DNA from: Linderina pennispora
Taxonomy: Eukaryota; Kickxellomycota; Kickxellomycetes; Kickxellales; Kickxellaceae
Length of the DNA stretch: 64,000 nt
Assembly: GCF_002104995.1 (NCBI RefSeq)
Contig: NW_024468253.1
Span: 1,116,001 to 1,180,000 of the forward strand
Reading direction: 5' to 3'
The notes beneath the pieces are model-generated. The model had not been told where the DNA came from. It saw only the letters and a program-made list of their open reading frames with translations, and ran no database searches. How positions within the stretch are numbered: the stretch's first letter is position 1; each line of letters starts with the position of its first letter. The position numbers and the translations under genes are program-made. Below are positions 8,340-48,999 of the stretch, piece after piece.

Positions 8340-8630
8340 AGACCCCCAGGCACCGAGACGGCGCAGGTACCTTTTTATCATGTAAATTCAATCAACTCTG
8401 TTTTCCTTGGAGGTTTGTATATGGTGCAAAAGGCGTTGCAAAAATACGATATGCGTGGCGTAGTTGCCCCCAGCGCATGGGAGGGAGAGAATCCGTGGAA
8501 TGAGTCAGTAGGGTGCGCTCCATAGTAGCCACTCTAGCAGAGGACCGTTCCTGGAAACGCAATTTTTGGGGAGACGAAGCAAGCACACTCCTTGCTACCT
8601 TCCAACATACTCCCTGACACAGCAAAAGGC

Positions 8631-10142
8631 ATGGTGATTCCCAACTTTGAAATCGGCATCATCGGCGCCGGCGACATGGGCATGCTGTACGCAAAGCGGT
8701 TCCGTGCTGCCGGCTACCCGGTGAACATCTGCGACACGCCCGAGCGCTTCGAGAGTCTACAGGCAAAGCACGGCAGCCTGGGCCTCAACATTCTGCTGCG
8801 ACGGCTACGCGGTCTCGCGGCGGTCTGATTTCATCATCTACAGCGTCCCGGCAGTGACAATCGATCCGGGCGGTGGAGGAGTACGGGCGGGCGACGAAGC
8901 TCCACGCAATTGTCGCCGGACAGACATCAGTCAAGACGCCGGAGATTGCAGCAGTTTGAGCGACACCTGCCCGAGGACGCCCACATCGTGACATGTCATT
9001 CAATGCACGGGCCCAACATCGACACGCGCGGACAGCCGCTGGCAATCATCCGGCACCGGGCCGACGACGCCCACTACGCAATGGCCTGTGGAGGCGCTGG
9101 GGGCGCTGGAGGCCCGCATGATCTACCTGACGTACCAGGAGCACGACCGCATCACGGCTGATACGCAGGCGGCCACGCATCTGGCGTTTCTGAGCCTGGG
9201 CACGGCCTGGTGCCTACAGGGCTACCACCCGTGGATCAACCCGCAGTTCATCGCTGGAATCAACAACGTCAAGGTGGCCATGGCGCTGCGCATCTACGCC
9301 AGCAAATGGCACGTGTATGCCGGCCTGGCCATCATGAATCCGCATGCCAAAACCCAGCTCCAGTGCTATGTCGAGTCTCTCCAGATACTCTACAAGTGCA
9401 TGGTGGGCGGGCGCCGCGACGAATTCACCAAGCTGATCTACGATCGCGGCCGACTTTGTCTTCGGCAAGGACCGCAGCCGCAAGGCCATTCTTCTCGACG
9501 ACTGAGACGCTCGACCAGCTGTCGCTGGCGCAGGTGCCTCCGAATGAGAGCCGGCCAAACTCCCACCTGTCGCTGCTGAGCGCTGCCGTGTGCTGGCACA
9601 AGATGCAGATGTCGCCTTATGATAATTTGATTATGCCAGACGCCCGCCGTTCCGCATGTGGCTTGGGCATTGTCGAGTACTTGTTTTGCAACGCCGAGAT
9701 GCTCAAGGAGGCCATTGAGACGGCGCTCGATGACCGCTACACGCAGGCAGGAGGACCTGGTGTTCTACACGGCGGTATCGGGCTGGGGCCAGTGCATCCA
9801 GCTCGGGTCGTTTGACGGATATCCGCGAGCGGTTCGAAAAGTCGGCGGCGTTCCTGAGCCACAGGCTCGAAGGAGGGCAAGGACCTGAGCACCTATGATC
9901 CTGCGCAAGCTCACCGAGACGGGCTCATAAAGGCCACAGAAACAAACCGAATATCTGCTGCAGCTATTGCTGCACCAGAGGCCGTGGCCCCTGACATAAT
10001 CATGGAGGTTGACTCAAAGAGCTACGAGTCAGGCGCCAACGAATGCCACTCGTCAATATATCGGATGGACATTGATACCCAGGCCAAATGTCAGACAAAT
10101 CAAGGCGATGTTTGCAGTAGAAAAAGAAGTGTATTTACATGA
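8631..10142 (+). CDS. TYR1: Prephenate dehydrogenase (many frame breaks)
   Basis: Tyr1 oxidatively decarboxylates prephenate to 4-hydroxyphenylpyruvate in tyrosine synthesis. The start MVIPNFEIGIIGAGDMG shows the GxGxxG dinucleotide-binding loop. Further recognisable pieces are DFIIYSVPAV, HSMHGPN, YQEHDRITADTQAATH, AFLSLGTAW, the TPPFR/WLGIVEY segment near 9640-9680 and FYTAVSGWGQCI. These follow each other in the right order but in changing frames. Breaks are apparent near 8800, 8865, 8952, 9090, 9447, 9505, 9648, 9750, 9820 and 9880, a denser pattern than in neighbouring genes. An in-frame ATG at 8592 is an alternative start. The last frame stays open to a TGA at 10140-10142, only 13 bp from the convergent lysozyme stop; the true C-terminus may be earlier. 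Either this is a low-quality patch of sequence or the gene is decaying. Identity of the family is firm. Confidence 0.8.
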
Positions 10143-13684: not shown

Positions 13685-15221
13685 CTACTGGAAAACCGTG
13701 CCCTGGTCGACCTTTTCCCGCTGGCGCTTCAGCACCTTCTGCTGGTGCTCAAGCAGCTGGGGGCTGACGGCCTGGGCAGTCACGGGGAACCTGTCCCACT
13801 GCTGGCGGATGCGAGCGCGCAGGTCGTCAAAGCACAGCCACTGCAGCCCAGGAACCGGCCCGCAGTCATACACGACCTGCAGCAGATTGGGCGAGTCCTG
13901 TTGGTGCATTGTCCGCCGGATAAACGACCGGCGCGCCGTTCTGCGCTGGGTCGGCGTGGACAGCGAAGCGGCCGGGCAGGGACGTCTTCTCGGCCTCTTC
14001 CTTGGGGAACTTCATGATATCGCGTTTAATGCCGTCGACGCCGATGATCTGGCTGATCTTGACTGCAGCACTGAGCGTGTCTCTGTTGACCTTCTGCAGC
14101 AGCCCGCCGCCCATGCCGAAGCCAATGCACTGCGCAGAAAACCCGGCATCCAGGACTGCCGCCAGAATGCGCTCCAGCGACTCGGGCGTGACACCGTCAC
14201 CCTGGATCACGCTGGCTCCGCTAATGACCTTGTAGCCTTTGCTGTTTCGCGCGCTGCCAAACACCTTGTCGGCAGCACGCAGCCCCAGCAGCACTGCCTC
14301 GACCTGGTCGCCGCTGTCGGGCCGAATCACCAGGAATCCGCCACGCTCCAGCTTCTTCTGCTTGACTGCCGGCAGGACCTCGGCCAGGGCGCGCGCATAG
14401 TCGAACGAGTCCATCACGCACGCATACACGCCGTCGCCATACGCTGCAATTGTGCCTAGCACTGCCTCACGGTCGCTCGCATGCGACATCATTACCGAGT
14501 GCTCCGTGGCTGGAATGCTAGTGGCCACCGGGTCCCCGTTGTTTAGCTGGTACTGTGCATAGAACGCGGCGCTCAATGTGTCGCTGCCCTGGTAGTTCAG
14601 AAGATGTGCTGTGCCACCCAGCACCGACTGCTCTACGCATGTGCACGCGCGGAACCCAAAGTCATGCATGCGGCTGTCCAACGTCCACATAGCCTTGCTG
14701 TCAACGCTTGTTTCGTATGCGCGCTCAATCGTTGTCCGTGTGCGCCGCGACAGCGTTGCTACTGTCGTCGGATACCATGTCATCAGCAATACTGTCTCCA
14801 GATACGTGATTAGCGGCGTATACGGCTCTTTGGCCGTGATTTGGTACACAGGCACGTGCGGATATACCACCGAGCCCTCGGCCAGCGCCTCGATTGTCAC
14901 GGGAAAATACCCGCCGTTCTCGCCTACGAACTTGTCAAAAAGTGCCTTTGGGAACGGGTATGGCGTGAACCCGGCGTTGTGTCTTGCAAAGAACGCCTCG
15001 GCCATTTTCACGTCCTGGCGTGTCCACGGCTTGCTGATGTATGTCTCCAGCACGTACCGCAGCCCGTAGAACACTATGCGCGTGTCCTTGGTATCGTGCT
15101 TGAATCCGCTGCGAAACTCCCCGTACGCCGTGGCCTGCTTTGCCGGCGGGTAGATGGCAAAGTGACTGGCTTTGTACGAGTCGGTCAGCAGCGGCAGTGG
15201 GAGACCAAGGGGACCAGACAT
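13685..15221 (-). CDS. NAMPT: Nicotinamide phosphoribosyltransferase
   Basis: NAMPT converts nicotinamide and PRPP to NMN, the direct NAD salvage route of animals and some bacteria. About 512 residues, the normal family length. Motifs include LTDSYKASHFAIYPP near the start, FYGLRYVLE, ETVLLMTWYPTTVAT, HDFGFRACTCVEQS, NYQGSDTLSAAF (Asp214, equivalent to the residue that selects nicotinamide), PATEHSVM (His241, the active-site histidine), VIRPDSGDQ, VIQGDGV and FGMGGGLLQKVNRDT. One frame break near 13915 moves the last 75 residues to another frame; the tail ends QGTVFQ at 13685. Most ascomycete and basidiomycete yeasts instead deamidate nicotinamide and use nicotinate phosphoribosyltransferase, so this is an unusual fungal gene. 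It is divergent from the YCII gene, sharing a 236 bp promoter region. Confidence 0.92.
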
Positions 15222-15457
15222 TACTGCTTTAAGAATAAGAGGAAGGTGGCTTAAGGGAAAAAAAAACCAGGGGAGAAGCTGGCTACACAGTTGACCTTTG
15301 AAGGGCCCAAAAGGGCGGTTGTGACGACCGTGGTGGGGCGAGCAAATCCCCGTTTTATTTGCTCAAGGGATTAAATCTCCTCATGCCTCTCACATCAAGT
15401 GACGCGTTAAGCAGACCACCCTCATTTCTTTCCTCCCACGCCACCTCTGCTCTCGCC

Positions 15458-41955: not shown

Positions 41956-43097
41956 CAGCTTAAAGTAGGATTAAAATGCAAGTCGTTAAAAAGAACAGTG
42001 TAGCTGAAATGCGAAACACGAAATACGGAATTTGCTATGCCTGAAAAAGGGGGAAGACAAACGCTCAAGTACAGGTGCAGCTCAAAAAGGACCCCTCCCC
42101 TGCAGAGATGGCCTGAGCCTGAACCTGAGCCTGAGCCGGGTTAGGGCGCATAAATGCCCAGGCGGCGTGGGGGCTTTCCCAGCTGTCCTACATCATCACA
42201 CTAACCTTGGCCTGCTGCTCCACAGTGCTTGGCTCCTTTCGCAAGATGACCAACGGAGCCGGGTCCAAGAACTGCTACCGTTGTCTGAAGAGTTTCTTGC
42301 TGTGGTAATCCCCAAGACAGGTGATCATTCTGTGGATATATACAACATGCACCAAGTACACCACGTCCTGACAGTGACGTCAAGGAAATTGCATTCATCT
42401 TGTTAAAACGATTAGCTGCTTATGCCATTTCACTGAATTGTTTACTTGGCGTCCTTTTTACTGCCGACAGCTATTCATAACAAAGGTGAGTAATTACCAC
42501 GCACCAAGGGTTACATTGATTCAGAAACACCAGTTATTCTTTTGAACCACTAACCAGGTACTTGTTGGCTCCAGCTGGCTCCGGGTGGCTCCATCCGAAA
42601 CACCCATGGGACTCTGGCGGCTCGCTTATATCGGACAAACCATCACATATGGTACACTGAGCTGCATACTTTCCGGGACATGTGGACACCCTTCGGTTTC
42701 TGTTTTCGGCCACCTTGTCCATTCAGATACCTGCAAGACTGTTCCTGAGAACCTGGTCCAGTCCGGATTGCTCATAAACAACGCATGACCTTATCTTGAA
42801 AGCAATCGATAAACTTGCTTAAAGTGCTTGCAGGTGTACTAAGCCGCATGAACCCCATCTGGACATCCCTCACTATGGATCTCTATACGAGGAAGTCTTT
42901 CTCCACTCGGAGATGCGCCTGCATATTGCAGACACTTGTCTGCTTCGGTTGTCACGCACGCACCGCTGGCCGCCTTCCTCTCGAATATCTATAAAGCACG
43001 ACCTCCGCTCCACTCTTTCCCCTCTCCATCACCCAACTGCTCTTCCACACTTCCATTTCCATATTCATATCCATCTTTCCCAGAACACCAGCTATGC
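41956..43097. other. Gene-free 1.1 kb stretch and F-box gene 2 promoter
   Basis: No supported gene. Near 42110-42140 there is a short GAGCCTGA-type repeat. Open frames (up to about 124 codons) carry no motif. The end holds a TATA-like element for the next gene. Confidence 0.4.
42990..42996 (+). promoter_or_regulatory. TATA-like box upstream of F-box/LRR-like gene 2
   Basis: TATAAAG about 105 bp before the ATG at 43098, followed by a C/T-rich leader. Confidence 0.45.
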
Positions 43098-44626
43098 ATG
43101 TACGTTCCTCTGCCAACATCAGCGCCTCTGACGAACGGCGATATAGTCGAAAGCATAATCCGCCATGCCAACTATGTCCAAATCCAAGACGAGCCCGATA
43201 TGGGCCACCAGGAGCGCTTCGATCAATCTGGCTCTGGTCTGTCACTCCTGGTATTCCATTGTCAAGCACGAACTCTACAAAAGCCTGGTCATTGAGCCCA
43301 AGAAAACCAAAGTCAGGCCGTGTCACATGGCGCTCAAATCTGCCGTCAATTGTCGCCGCCGGCATGCAGCACAGGGTCATACACCTTTGTCTCGGTGGTC
43401 CCCTGATCACCGAGCGATGCTACCCTCATCGACGTTATCCGAGGGCTCGGCGTACACCATCACAGACTCCCCAACCTATGCTCAATTCTTATAATGACAT
43501 GTGATGGATATACAGAGTTCCCTCGGGTCTGGTGTCGCCTCCCAGCTCATCTCCACCTACTTGCTGCAGCTGTTCCCCCATGTATTCTCTGTCACTCCTA
43601 TCACGTCTGGCAGCCTATCGACTGTGCCTGCCAACATCTACTACAATCTCATCGTGATGTTGGCTGCCTCTATCAGCAAGATCACGGTCGATGGCTTCAT
43701 CCTTCGTAGTATCCCACATGTGCATTTCCAGAACCTGACCAGTATCCGCATTATAGACCCATCAGAGGGCACGGCATCCCGGAACTATGCGCGTCAATCC
43801 TAACACTCTCAAGACAATCGAAATTGTCAACAGCTCGAGCAACTTCCCGTGGGGCATGTTCGGCGACGCCAGCAACCCAATCGTGTTCCCGAATGTCGAG
43901 CAGCTGATAATGCGCACGTTCCAAAATTGCCATGTTTACCCGGCGACCCAGATTGGTCGGTTCAAGCTGCAGTTCCCCAGACTCTGGAGCCTCTGCCTGA
44001 TGGAGGACCTTGGACTCATACACGGACGCGCTGGACTTGGATAAAGATCCTCTAGCATTGGGTCGCTTGTTATCCTCGATGATGCAAACAAGCTGCAGCG
44101 CCTCAACCCAAAGTTGGTCCGCAATATACGCGAGTTCTGCATCAGCGATTCGCAGAGAACTCAGATCCCTGTACTCGACAAGAACGGCTTCTTTATCAAG
44201 ATCTTTGATATCCCGGCCAAGCTGAACAAAGTCACGCTGTCTCTGCCACAATCCGACTTCCCGCCCATCAAGGACGCAAAATGGCCAATGCTTAGGAGTC
44301 TGCGCCTTGTAGCTCGCTCAATTCCGCTGCAGAGCATTGAGATTCTCATGACGCAGCTGCCCCGGATGCACACGCTAGATCTCTCCATGTCCCACTCGGA
44401 TCAGCAAGCCAGTGATGAGGTTGTGTGCAGCAGGAGGACCCCACTAAGCACATCAGTTCTGGTATTTGGTCTCAAAATCGCATTCCCGACACTGCGAGAC
44501 AAGACCTGGCTACTGATGGCAACCCGGCGGCTGCCAGAGCTTTACAAGCTAGTTCTGTCGGAGCGCTTTAAGGTGGACAAGGCAGCCTTGAGACGGGTGT
44601 ACAAGAATGGTCTAGCATTTGTCTAG
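43098..44626 (+). CDS. F-box/leucine-rich-like protein 2 (several frame breaks)
   Basis: Start MYVPLPTSAPLTNGDIVESI is followed, after a frame break near 43190, by SINLALVCHSWYSIVKHELY and KSLVIEP. The pair resembles an F-box start and the ALVCxxWY segment typical of these fungal proteins. Downstream are Leu/Ile-rich repeats: STYLLQLFPHVFSVT, VHFQNLTSIRIIDPSEG, NPNTLKTIEIVNSSSN, VFPNVEQLIMRTFQNC, FKLQFPRLWSLCLMEDLGL, KLNKVTLSLPQSDFPP, WPMLRSLRLVARSIP and TQLPRMHTLDLSMSHS. It ends KNGLAFV at 44626. Breaks near 43190, 43330, 43500, 43785 and 44045. About 505 residues. Function as an SCF substrate receptor is inferred from architecture only. Confidence 0.55.
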
Positions 44627-45367
44627 GCTTTATGATTTCTACCATTTGTAGATTTGTTCTAACTATAGGCAGTTTATCATTTTTCTTTCATTTTTCGCCT
44701 CCTACATTTTATCCTGGTGTTCATAATTGCTGCCATTCAGGGTCCAGAGTCCCCCTGCGCTACCATTGGCAAACCTGAAACGCACACATATAAAATCCCA
44801 GATAGACCGTCGGCTATCCTTCCTCTGTTCATATATTTTTGAAAACGCATTTTCCAAATATACCCAATAGCCACTCATCCGCTTGGCAAACAAGGGTGTG
44901 TCTATAAATTATACTTTGTACGCTCTTGCTCTTTACATAATAATGCGAATATCGCTGATGATGTTTCGCATACCGTTGCTGCAGTTTTGAGGACGTCAGC
45001 GCTGGCAAGGCCATGTCAGCTGATCAAGACTGATGCCAACGGAAAAAAAACCTATGTGCAACTGATGAACACACTAGCAGAGAGTTTAAAGTTTGATCCA
45101 TTGCAGACAGGCTGCTTTGGTTTTGTTGCTGTGCTCGGATACCATGCAGTAACGGAATCTTCAAAAGGGCAGTGCACGGTGTTTGTAGTTTCCCCTTTCT
45201 CCCTTTCTCCTTACTCCCTAGCTTTGCTATTTCAATTCTTAAAATCACACATCAGACATCAACGACACCACCTGCCTTTATATGTTATCTCAACTGTACT
45301 AGAAATACTCTGCTCGCGATGCGAGCTCGGCTGCTAGTCAGCATGGGTTGACACGTCGATAAGAGCA
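44627..45367. other. AT-richer stretch downstream of the Fanzor 3' end
   Basis: No gene recognised. The 100 bp next to the Fanzor stop contain two adjacent small hairpins (see 45313-45342). Confidence 0.4.
45313..45342 (-). other. Two adjacent small hairpins just 3' of the Fanzor gene (candidate guide-RNA region)
   Basis: On the DNA, CTCGC-GAT-GCGAG (45313-45325) and GCTG-CTAGT-CAGC (45330-45342) form neighbouring short stems 26-55 bp downstream of the Fanzor stop. Fanzor guide RNAs are known to be transcribed from the region at and beyond the 3' end of the nuclease gene. The hairpins are short and could be chance, so this is only a pointer to where to look. Confidence 0.2.
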
Positions 45368-47989
45368 TCACGGCGAACCGGTCATTTGAACGTGTCGGAT
45401 GGCTTGTTGATGCAATGGCGGATCATGGACATCTCCTGTCTTGGATGGCCTGCTCTGCGTAGGCGCTTCAGCGCTGGCTTCGCTGCTGCTGGCAACAGAA
45501 CCGCCTGCTGCTGCACACCTCTTGCGCGGCCTCTTTGTTGCAGGGGTGGTGCCAGAAGCATCAGCAGCAATGGCCGTAAAGCGATGGAACCGTTCAGGAA
45601 TACTGCCTGAATCACAGAGTGACTGGAAAATGAGCCTGAAGTTTAGAACTGCTGCGAGATCGCGGTTCAAGAGCCGAGACGAATAGGCCCGCCTGTATTG
45701 TGCCATGACCCGCTTACATGACTCGCTTGTACAGCGGAGAAGGCCATGGCACTTCACAATTGGGTTCTTCGATCTCTGGTAGGGCCGCGGGTTGGGAACA
45801 TGCCGGAATGTCAGCAGCGACTTTTTGCAGCAGAACGGGCACACCGACGATGTCCGGAATTCGTCGATCAGATAGACTTCAAAGCCATGGTGCTTGAACT
45901 TGTCGCGCTGCCCCTTGCCACGAATCGGCGCATGGTGCCGGGCCATCGGCGCACTCCAATTGCCCATGATCAGCACTGGGTCTGGACCAAACTTGCTCCG
46001 GAGTTTTGCGGCAAGCCTGTGGTCTGCACGGGCCTGGTTCATGAATGAATCAAGGCGCAGCTTGCGGTGAAGCGGGTACACCTTGGGACTGGTGCTGACA
46101 CCCGGATGGGCCTTCCAGCGCCTCTGGTGCTGCTTGTTTGACTTAGTGAGTTGCTGCTCTGGTAACCTTCGCGCTGTCATCGTGTTGGCATAAAACGGTG
46201 CTAGGACACACCGCACAGATGCACGGGCAGCAACGTAGGCACGGAATTTTGCTGGGCTAAGGGTCCGGCAGCAGTGCTTGGAAAGCTCTGCCTCTGCTCT
46301 GCGGACAGCATCTTCTGGGACTTGATCCTTTGTATCCCAACGAATCCTGTCATAGTGGCGCAGCTTGAGCTCCTTATTGCGCTGCTGCCGTGTGTAGCGG
46401 TAGAGCATTTTTTCACCCTCTTTCCCATTGCTGCTATTTTCGTGCATCATGTATAGCAAATCGCCCCGACCTGGATCGATGAATACACAGCGGCCTTTCA
46501 GATTCTGCAGCTCTGGCTGTGGGATCTGGTGGATATAGCGACAGTCAGCTATAGTACTGCCTACCACAGCATCGCCTGTAGCATCGCCTCCCACAGAATT
46601 GCCTCCCGCAGCATCGCCTCCTGCACCATCAGCATCTACTGCACCATCAGCCTTGAATATCTTGTCTTGCAACAGAATGCATATCGTTACACCATCTGTT
46701 GTCGCCATTCCGTGGAATTTTCTATCACCATGCGCCTTAAATGGCTTTGATGTTAGATCTGCGACCCGGCCCCACACATCCCACACAGGTTGTGTGATCC
46801 CTTGGACCGGGTCGTGTGCACAGACTGGGGGTGCTGATGCATATGCATTGTTAAGTGCTGCAACAGTGTCTGCTGCTGCTGCCGATGCAGCAGCAAGTGA
46901 ATCAGCCGCTACTGCTGCAGTTGCTGCAGTGGCCTCTGTTGCATCCAATGACATCTTCGCTGCTTCGCGTGCAGCCTTCTTGGCCAACTTTTCGCCCTTT
47001 TCTGCTGCTTTCCTTGCCTCTGTTGCTGCCCTCTTTGCTGCGTTGATCTTGGTAACCTCCTCACGTGTTTTTCGAAACAAACACCTGCTTGACTATTTGC
47101 TTGTCTAAGCGCACATGGCCTGGGATCCATGATGTCCGCAGAGGCAAGCATTGGGGGGAGACTTGCCAAGCTGCTCATTCTCGATAAGCTGGCATAGACG
47201 AATGTATGCACGCAGATGCTTAAGTGGATTTACCTTGGCATCATAGTATCGGCTGTCCTTTGGCGAATCTGTACTTGGCATCATAGGCATTAAGGACTGG
47301 TGCCAGCTTGTTGTAGATTGCAAGCATCGGTGGGGTGAGCACACTGAGATCAGGGTGCCTAGAGGCAACTGCCTGGCGGAGCTTCTGTGCAGGTGTATAA
47401 ATACACACTTGACATGCATTATTGAACTCAGCCTTGGACGCATTGCCCATTGTACTGTGCAGTGTGTTTTTGCGGCTGCGAATATCAATCAATTTGGCCA
47501 GAATCCGCTGTAGGCAAGTGCCATAGTGCAACACAATGTTGTTCTTGTATGCTGTCATCAGCTCGGTATCCACGTATGTCGCTACCTGATTCATTTCACG
47601 TACACCATGTAGCTTGATATCGCCATTATGCAATAGATAATCATAAATATGATATCTAACTACATCACCGAAATCTGCGCTCGACAGTTCTGACCTGTCC
47701 TTCCGGTTGACGAAATCCTCGGCAGATATGACAGTCTTCGCCTTCAGGTTGCGATAAATGAATAAATAAATAAAACGAAAAAAAAACCCTTTTTCACAAA
47801 TGTTGCAGGGTCAAAGGCATCATCGTCAGCTAGTTGATGGAGTAATATCCATCGTGCAAGCATGTATGTATGCTCTTTGATGATATTGACACTATGTACA
47901 AATTGCTCTAGGCGGGGCAACATAGAATCACGGAAGCCAATACCACCAAGTGATGTCTTTATGACAGTAGTGCTGCAGGTAATATTCAT
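45368..47989 (-). CDS. Fanzor RNA-guided endonuclease (eukaryotic TnpB-like)
   Basis: Fanzors are eukaryotic relatives of transposon TnpB, programmable DNA nucleases guided by an RNA. The N-terminal part has FVHSVNIIKEHTYMLARWIL, VATYVDTELMTAYKNNIVLH, AYDAKYRFAKGQPIL/YDAKV, PLKHLRAYIRLCQLIENEQ and, across a poly-C break, CLPLRTSWIPGHVRLDKQIV. The C-terminal 570-codon frame holds KPFKAHGDRKFHGMATTDGV and RCVFIDPGRGDLLYM (RuvC-I Asp, codon 46475-46477). It continues with LIDEFRTSSVCPFC (Glu codon 45860-45862), zinc ligands CPFC...KCHGLLRC...SC, and LLNRDLAAVLNF (RuvC-III Asp, about 45661). Spacing fits the published Fanzor signature D-x(125-275)-[TS][TS]xx-C4 zinc finger-RD. About 70 Lys/Ala-rich residues are inserted at 46845-47060. 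Breaks are near 47250, 47150 and 47085; near 47760 there is either a break or a short intron at a T tract. About 873 residues. Confidence 0.88.
46562..46648 (-). repeat. Short imperfect tandem repeats in the Fanzor gene
   Basis: Units of about 15 bp around GCATCGCCTCC recur four to five times on the plus strand. On the coding strand they encode GAGGDAAGGNSVGGDATGDA. They lie between the TDGV and RuvC-I segments, a loop position tolerant of insertion. Confidence 0.7.
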
Positions 47990-48588
47990 TTGAGAAATTC
48001 AATAGGCAAGTAAGAGAGAAATGATGCTGTTCAGTTTTGCTTTATTGCGTATGCATAGCATTAAGAACTTTTTATTAATAATGATCTGGGTTGCATGGTT
48101 CTTGGGGCCCTTAGCACCGATACAGTCTCTTGAATCAGTCTATACAGACTGGATCCATTGTGGCCCAAATACTACTGCCTACGCATGTTCATAAGACAAA
48201 TTAATTTGTAAAATAAACCCACAAATATTGCATGACCGCTAGAAGAGCTATATGGCCTCATTCAATAGGTGCTCATAAATAAACATCCTAATGAGTGTTG
48301 CGCAGCCGGTGATGACCACCATGATGACGCCATGGAAGTTATCAGGCCGACCGACAATGAGAGCAGCTCTTGCGCTGAACCAATGGAGATATCTAGTGGA
48401 GACCTGTGACCACTACAATAACAACTTCGTCACCCTGGTTTCACCGATGAGGTCAGATGCCGCACAAGATCAAAAGGAGTTTACAGAGCAAGTCACCCAA
48501 ACTCGCTTTGAGGTTTAAAAGAATTATATCTTTTAATCAATTAAATAGCTTCTAGCGGACGGTCGGATACTTTTTGGACTATAAAATC
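47990..48588. other. AT-rich stretch upstream of Fanzor
   Basis: About 600 bp with no supported gene. A 75-codon plus-strand frame (48291-48518) shows no motif. No terminal inverted repeat matching the other side of the Fanzor was recognised by eye. Confidence 0.35.
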
Positions 48589-48999
48589 TTATATAAAGGT
48601 AAAGATATCTTTGTTCTCGACACCTCTGGAGCCATACGAGTCAGTGTCCTTCTTGTCCTCAAGGGCGGCAAAGGCGTCTAGGACGACATCAAACAATGAC
48701 TCAATACCGTACTAGAGTCCACAATGCGCTGCTCTAAGTAGGACTTGCACACTCATATAGCGGAGTGTTCCAGTAAGCGAATCGTGCCTGCCCTCGTTTT
48801 CCTCGCCATCGCTCTGGCTGTAGCCCCACTGTTCAGCAAGCTCTACCATGCTCTTCTGGTGGGTAGCGTTCGTATTGTCATCGTCTGATACGGTTGAGAT
48901 GACCTTGGCATACCCCCAGTCGATGACGTATACATTTCTACCTTTGACTGTGATGTTCCCTGATGAAATAGCACATATATGTAGTAATAGAGTAGACTC
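48589..48999 (-). pseudogene. FunK1-type protein kinase fragment
   Basis: One minus-strand frame reads LLLHICAISSGNITV, RNVYVIDWGYAKVIS, HDSLTGTLRYMSVQVLL and IESLFDVVLDAFAALEDKK. This is the order of the catalytic-loop, DWGYAK (DFG-equivalent), activation-loop and C-lobe motifs of fungal FunK1 kinases. It is a fragment. The N-lobe is absent, a stop bounds it upstream (49000-49002), an in-frame TAG interrupts it at 48712-48714, and the HRD catalytic triad has become ICA. It is therefore non-functional. It lies next to the Fanzor in the same AT-rich block. Confidence 0.65.

Follow-up and report, generated by a model that had tools for sequence, protein, structure and literature searches.

A broken Fanzor1 gene inside a Helitron-type element of Linderina pennispora, and related elements joined to a RepHel transposase

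We analyzed a stretch of 64,000 nucleotides from the fungus Linderina pennispora (contig NW_024468253.1, positions 1,116,001 to 1,180,000 of the forward strand; hereafter the window) and found that a Fanzor1-type gene on its minus strand, at 45.3-48.6 kb, is a broken copy lying inside a Helitron-type rolling-circle element. Fanzors are RNA-guided DNA nucleases, and at several loci of this small (26 Mb) fungal genome a Helitron transposase (RepHel) and Fanzor1 are physically joined. In the reading that we favor, to which we give a probability of roughly 0.7, RepHel would mobilize the Fanzor elements, would read through from its own end into an adjoining Fanzor unit, and the Fanzor protein would be guided to cut alleles that are empty of the element.

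Identity of the Fanzor1 gene

An earlier note, made from the letters of the window alone, had proposed a Fanzor locus with an intact catalytic signature in a zygomycete-grade fungus, a description that suits the host, an early-diverging fungus of the Kickxellales (Kickxellomycota). The motifs that it listed are present on the minus strand and in the order given. A 574-codon open frame at 45371-47092 carries DPGRGD, GNWS at the canonical RuvC-II position, DEFRTSSVCPFC and NRD, and because all of these motifs share one frame, the RuvC half of the gene is unbroken. The N-terminal blocks that had also been named lie on the same strand in other frames. When the 574-codon frame alone was compared with PDB sequences by phmmer, the best match was Parasitella parasitica Fanzor1 (PpFz1; expectation value (E) 6.2e-58), and Spizellomyces punctatus Fanzor1 (SpuFz1) was matched with E 2.4e-31, values that chance would not produce. 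In these alignments Asp206, Glu411 and Asp478 of the window frame correspond to D383, E541 and D606 of SpuFz1, the active-site residues as numbered by Saito et al. (PMC10432273). Asp206 is the aspartate of the RuvC-I motif DPGRGD. The RuvC-II glutamate of Fanzors is rearranged to a position six residues ahead of the zinc-finger CxxC (PMC10711439); the ExxxxxxCxxC pattern is matched in DEFRTSSVCPFC, and the alignment of Glu411 with E541 bears out the earlier proposal that the glutamate beside the zinc finger is the rearranged site. The zinc finger and RuvC-III follow as CPFC ... CTSESC ... NRD.

Homology over nearly the full length was found through an unbroken sibling copy, L021 (fetched loci are numbered with L and contigs with C), whose protein matched PpFz1 with E 2.4e-83, SpuFz1 with 2.9e-33 and, weakly, GtFz1 with 7.9e-6; it aligned with PpFz1 in four collinear blocks covering residues 7-812 of 863. 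Profile searches, which the earlier note had put forward as a check, stayed below the cut-offs of curated TnpB/Cas12f families: PF07282 scored 10.8 and 12.5 bits (cut-off 26.3) and NF040570, run on the window frame only, 9.9 (cut-off 100). Pfam and NCBIfam give the protein no name. A relative from Coemansia, P0002, likewise falls under the PF07282 cut-off (16.5 bits), and we therefore did not treat this cut-off as defining for Fanzor1. Judged by these sequence comparisons the locus is a Fanzor1 gene, and RNA-guided DNA cleavage is a predicted property of the intact protein.

The features of the locus are as follows, in window coordinates.

45299..48605, minus strand: whole mobile element, 3,307 bp, with Helitron-type ends and Fanzor1 cargo (ends common to the siblings)
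48524..48605, minus strand: left end, about 82 bp, TC after A, in common with RepHel-bearing units (blastn against locus L041)
47990..48523, minus strand: 5' leader of the Fanzor unit (unbroken siblings begin at the same ATG)
47747..47989, minus strand: N-terminal coding piece of Fanzor1 from the ATG (open frame; homologous to the start of the 863-residue frame of L021)
47244..47810, minus strand: N-terminal coding piece of Fanzor1, second frame (in L021, residues 7-302 align with PpFz1)
47108..47488, minus strand: coding piece of Fanzor1, third frame (open frame; frame changes counted against the sibling)
45371..47092, minus strand: RuvC and zinc-finger part of Fanzor1, 574-codon frame (matches to PpFz1 and SpuFz1)
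46475..46477, minus strand: RuvC-I catalytic Asp206 in DPGRGD (SpuFz1 D383)
45860..45862, minus strand: rearranged RuvC-II Glu411 in DEFRTSSVC (SpuFz1 E541)
45659..45661, minus strand: RuvC-III Asp478 in NRD (SpuFz1 D606)
45312..45326, minus strand: right-end hairpin with a 6-bp stem and a 3-nt loop (Helitron terminator; may also form the final stem of a guide RNA)
45299..45302, minus strand: 3' terminus CTAG, followed by TA outside the element (45297-45298)

The span first reported for the locus, 45368-47989, holds the coding part; the repeated unit is the larger 45299-48605, and its Helitron carrier had gone unmentioned.

Helitron-type ends shared by a large family

Other copies in the genome, which the earlier note had suggested looking for, are abundant. 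Searching the entire assembly with the protein gave at least 103 Fanzor1 matches, a lower bound because 76 of the 484 candidates were scored. We fetched 20 sibling loci of 10 kb each, and blastn among the copies placed sharp boundaries on the repeated unit, at the right end in 20/20 siblings and at the left end in 17/20. Behind a flanking A, the left end begins with TCTTTACC. The right end consists of the hairpin GCTCGC-ATC-GCGAGC, nine nucleotides and CTAG, after which host DNA begins; across 18 copies, 96.3% of the cells of its helix are paired. Known hallmarks of Helitrons are a TC start, a CTRR terminus, a hairpin near the 3' end and an A^T target (PMC4778049), and both the TC and CTRR termini and the subterminal hairpin are found here. 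Allowing up to three mismatches, the right-end pattern occurred 199 times in the genome, against 0 for a reversed control. The window copy is itself among the genomic hits of the exact end patterns. The left end is also that of the RepHel-bearing locus L041, which blastn aligned with L021 over 82 bp at 97.6% identity and with the window copy over 77 bp at 93.5%.

Two smaller observations concern the ends. As regards Helitron2, which is marked by a 5' hairpin and asymmetric inverted repeats, a short ATCTT...AAGAT inverted repeat can be seen at the left end. The right ends can also be divided into subtypes by the letters just ahead of the terminus; among those listed, TATTTCTAG and CAATTCTAG or CAATTCTGG are the main ones, and the subtypes may mark subfamilies.

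Purifying selection on the Fanzor1 protein

Four of the 20 fetched siblings have an uninterrupted frame (L021, 863 residues; L022, 867; L023, 857; L038, 870), and these four begin at the same ATG and finish at the same end. For a codon alignment we used the window copy and 17 of the 20 fetched loci, excluding the short or rearranged L027, L031 and L032. The ratio of non-synonymous to synonymous substitution rates (dN/dS) ranged from 0.26 to 0.42 in pairwise comparisons of the 17 others with L021, and from 0.28 to 0.34 among the four unbroken copies. Variants found in two or more copies comprised 143 non-synonymous and 111 synonymous changes, far from the neutral ratio of 2.71:1 (P 1e-8), whereas those found in a single copy comprised 261 and 118 (P 0.07 against neutrality), and the two classes differed from each other (P 0.001). 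Since shared variants are depleted in non-synonymous changes and singletons are near neutral, selection appears to act while lineages spread, and single copies to decay after insertion. These data indicate that the Fanzor1 protein is under purifying selection, with dN/dS near 0.3.

The same data bear on an alternative in which Fanzor contributes nothing to the spread of the Helitron, being its parasite or passive cargo, and the purifying selection reflects spread by some other route or a role in the host. Saito et al. state that it is unknown what Fanzor nuclease activity does biologically (PMC10432273), which leaves room for such an account. However, the shared variants preserve the protein, the catalytic triad is retained in 17 of the 18 aligned copies (L033 lacks the glutamate, and several others are changed beside triad residues), and for a role in the host, dozens of copies would be unnecessary. 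We consider this alternative somewhat unlikely.

RepHel units joined to Fanzor elements

The 3.3-kb element of the window carries no RepHel; loci of the same element family that match PF14214 and PF05970 have its left end and adjoin further element left ends. PF14214, the Helitron Rep domain, gave 13 matches at seven loci in the assembly, and at six of the seven the left end of the Fanzor element lies 1.7-1.9 kb upstream of Rep. The seventh, on contig C68, is without this left end and scored lower. There (G000:C68:196071-198650) Rep and PIF1 matches share one open frame of 1,989 residues, apparently in a Helitron-type family of a different kind.

At L041, where the Rep domain was matched in two pieces (E 4.1e-9 and 1.8e-50), Rep is followed by a second type of right end, which we call RE', then directly by an element left end, the Fanzor leader, a deleted Fanzor gene and the Fanzor right end. 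The hairpin stem of RE' reads GCTTGC/GCAAGC and that of the Fanzor right end GCTCGC/GCGAGC, a paired change. The assembly contains eight copies of RE'. At five of them, on C2, C23, C157 (position 1115020), C171 and C212, CTAG of RE' abuts TC of an element left end in an exact joint, and slightly altered joints were read directly on C112 (L041) and C1 (L037), so that an element left end stands behind RE' in all seven checkable copies, the eighth (C157:14422) falling outside the check. Six of the eight RE' copies have a Fanzor coding match behind them, namely those on C1, C23, C112 and C212 and the two on C157. At C157:1115020 that match starts 5.6 kb past RE', which suggests that an insertion lies between the two. 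A PIF1 helicase match stands 967-971 bp ahead of RE' at five loci, and at L037 a Pif1 2B domain is found there (E 2.1e-19). The RepHel part, taken from its left end through to RE', is 5.5-5.6 kb long at three loci, of which C157 has two and C2 one. One complete joined unit of RepHel and Fanzor, on C157, extends over about 8.9 kb. The right flanks of the joined units at L037 and L041 differ, and these two at least are therefore separate insertions. By analogy with TnpA and TnpB in IS605, RepHel and Fanzor1 may travel together.

We also considered the 5.9-kb L041 as a complete autonomous Helitron and rejected this, as it is a joined unit with internal deletions. Upstream of the joined unit at L037, positions 8590-9870 hold a frame for a DDE superfamily endonuclease/transposase (PF13359, E 2.5e-13).

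A joint of this form could also have arisen by nesting, if a RepHel Helitron had inserted into the A^T that borders resident elements on their 5' side and the two had never formed one travelling unit. Insertion at A^TC would leave exactly the joint in which CTAG is followed by TC, and tandem Helitrons have been reported in bat, Drosophila, rice, maize and a fungus (PMC5148889). Nevertheless, no RE' without an element left end behind it was seen among the seven of eight that were checked, the eighth is followed at 2-3.3 kb by a Fanzor match and a right end, and L037 and L041 are joined units in front of different right flanks. Nesting seems somewhat unlikely to us.

State of the window copy

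Compared with the unbroken L021, the window copy has seven indels in its coding sequence, six of them frame-shifting. All lie either in the N-terminal half or far out in the C-terminal tail, with 0 in the RuvC core, and no in-frame stop codon was found in its codon alignment. As assembled, this copy no longer encodes the whole protein. The proposal that the gene looks complete and may be active is accordingly not supported for the window locus, and fits the family better, because siblings with unbroken frames exist. A Gly/Ala/Asp-rich repeat before RuvC-I (around 46.6 kb) differs in length between copies and is 30 bp shorter in the window copy than in L021, in frame.

It might be asked whether the frame breaks are assembly errors in a copy that is really intact. 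The six frame-shifting indels exceed the average of 1.1 found over 16 other copies (Poisson P 0.001 for a count of six or higher). So many such indels, together with the lack of an in-frame stop, could hint at sequencing error. On the other side, the copies compared were picked for high scores, and the 27 private substitutions of the window copy (19 non-synonymous, 7 synonymous and 1 stop-type, by single-position scoring) look neutral, as expected for a decaying copy. We judge assembly error rather unlikely.

Insertion sites

The exact right-end pattern occurred 116 times in the assembly and was followed by TA in 114 cases; T followed 20 of the 21 right ends that were read. The exact left-end pattern occurred 64 times and was preceded by A in 52, which becomes 52/59 because five of the twelve exceptions are head-to-tail joints. 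One empty site was found: the host repeat that holds L026 occurs in L022 without the element, at 82% identity, and the alignment spans the junction. The left flanks of L026 and L040 are homologous to within 6-12 bases of the insertion point, and as judged by these flanks the two elements are at the same place, within a few bases, in two copies of one host repeat.

That the element is instead carried by another class of transposon, a cut-and-paste element duplicating TA, is highly improbable: the TA behind 114/116 right ends and the 25 of 40 scored left ends that align from TA would fit it, but TA is far less regular on the left flank than on the right, no inverted repeats between the ends were seen by eye (without a repeat tool), the terminal hairpin and CTAG are Helitron-like, and we set this carrier aside because the Rep loci have the left end of the Fanzor element.

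A proposed mechanism

In the mechanism that we propose for the Helitron-type family, RepHel would move the 3.3-kb Fanzor units in trans. Where the two are joined, it would read past its own 3' hairpin and stop at the Fanzor right end, so that a joined unit of about 8.9 kb moves. For Helraiser, experiments have shown that the 3' end can be bypassed and DNA downstream of it transduced (PMC4778049). By analogy with known systems, the Fanzor protein would pair with an RNA from the right end and flanking DNA, recognize the empty A^TA target as a target-adjacent motif (TAM) of the ATN kind, and cut alleles free of the element, and repair of the cut allele would copy the element in. The TAM of PpFz1 is 5'-ATN (PMC11423790); given this motif and the target A^TA, a guide that begins just past CTAGTA would be directed to the empty allele of its own insertion, with ATA next to it as the TAM.

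Several points weigh against this mechanism. The ATN motif is that of PpFz1 and is carried over to the Linderina protein as a prediction, and the strict TA may be a plain target preference of RepHel; Helraiser prefers AT-rich DNA, most of all on the 3' side (PMC4778049). Folding of the putative guide RNA gave z-scores of -0.30 to +0.34 in four copies, which is no signal. The paired cells and double changes of the right end were matched by 119 of 500 shuffles and its covariation score by 40 of 500, and conservation is no higher at the right end than in the coding region. The sole empty site is an 82% paralogue, too diverged to settle a TA duplication. RepHel is known here from Rep and PIF1 domain matches, and the joined units might be nested insertions instead of one travelling unit. 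Finally, the 76 of 484 candidates that were scored include no Fanzor coding match behind the joint on C2, and none was seen behind that on C171, where the contig runs for about 1.5 kb more.

A stronger version would make the family a eukaryotic counterpart of TnpA-TnpB, with an HUH RepHel and Fanzor1 head to tail in one travelling unit, a TAM (predicted ATA/ATN) identical with the A^TA target, a guide past CTAGTA and cutting of the element's own empty allele. We regard this as possible but less likely than not. If it were true, each insertion would program the cutting of its own empty allele. The target motif predicts the Fanzor TAM ahead of any experiment, and with joined loci, selection on the protein and a well-defined target motif in one element family, the use of Fanzor to its carrier is directly testable.

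Comparison with known systems

IS200/IS605 elements combine the HUH transposase TnpA with the RNA-guided nuclease TnpB, and have a subterminal hairpin and a target motif beside the end. The Linderina elements may work alike in that an HUH transposase is linked to a nuclease, with a subterminal hairpin and a target motif; they differ in that the transposase belongs to another family and the element is a eukaryotic rolling-circle one. Saito et al. suggested the TnpA/TnpB parallel from the reported co-occurrence of Fanzor with Helitrons (PMC10432273), and we keep such a partnership as a hypothesis about how the elements work.

That Fanzor1 resides on Helitrons is already known from CRe-1, CRe-2 and CRe-3 of Chlamydomonas (PMC3627910). 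In the accessible portions of the literature on Fanzor/TnpB with Helitron we found no description of a unit that combines RepHel with Fanzor. The CRe elements resemble those of Linderina in carrying Fanzor1 between Helitron ends, in their many copies and in their excess of 3' ends (PMC3627910), for which the corresponding Linderina counts with exact patterns are 116 right ends and 64 left ends, the two patterns differing in stringency. They are unlike in being non-autonomous Helitron2 elements with a multi-exon gene, insertion after TTTT and variable duplications (PMC3627910), whereas in the Linderina elements the gene is a single uninterrupted frame, the ends are TC and CTAG at an A^TA target, and units are joined to RepHel.

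Among individual proteins, PpFz1 (PDB 9cf0-9cf3) is collinear with L021 and shares DPG, the rearranged glutamate, the zinc finger and NRD. The alignment gap between them leaves a PpFz1 stretch of about 105 residues, which we infer to be the FRI domain, against about 30 in the Linderina protein. SpuFz1 (PDB 8gkh) shares its catalytic residues one to one with the window frame; its element SPu-1, in contrast, has 33-bp terminal inverted repeats and putative TA duplications, not Helitron ends (PMC3627910). The nearest proteins among 8000 scored candidates were those of Coemansia (P0001-P0014), with 34-41% identity over 21-51% of the query.

Two further observations concern the rest of the window. 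A nicotinamide phosphoribosyltransferase gene lies at 13869-15362, and over the 87% of the query that was matched its product is 100% identical to a Linderina pennispora protein. Near the element, a stretch of about 2.2 kb at 42500-44726 recurs, inverted, near the L036 copy at 93% identity.

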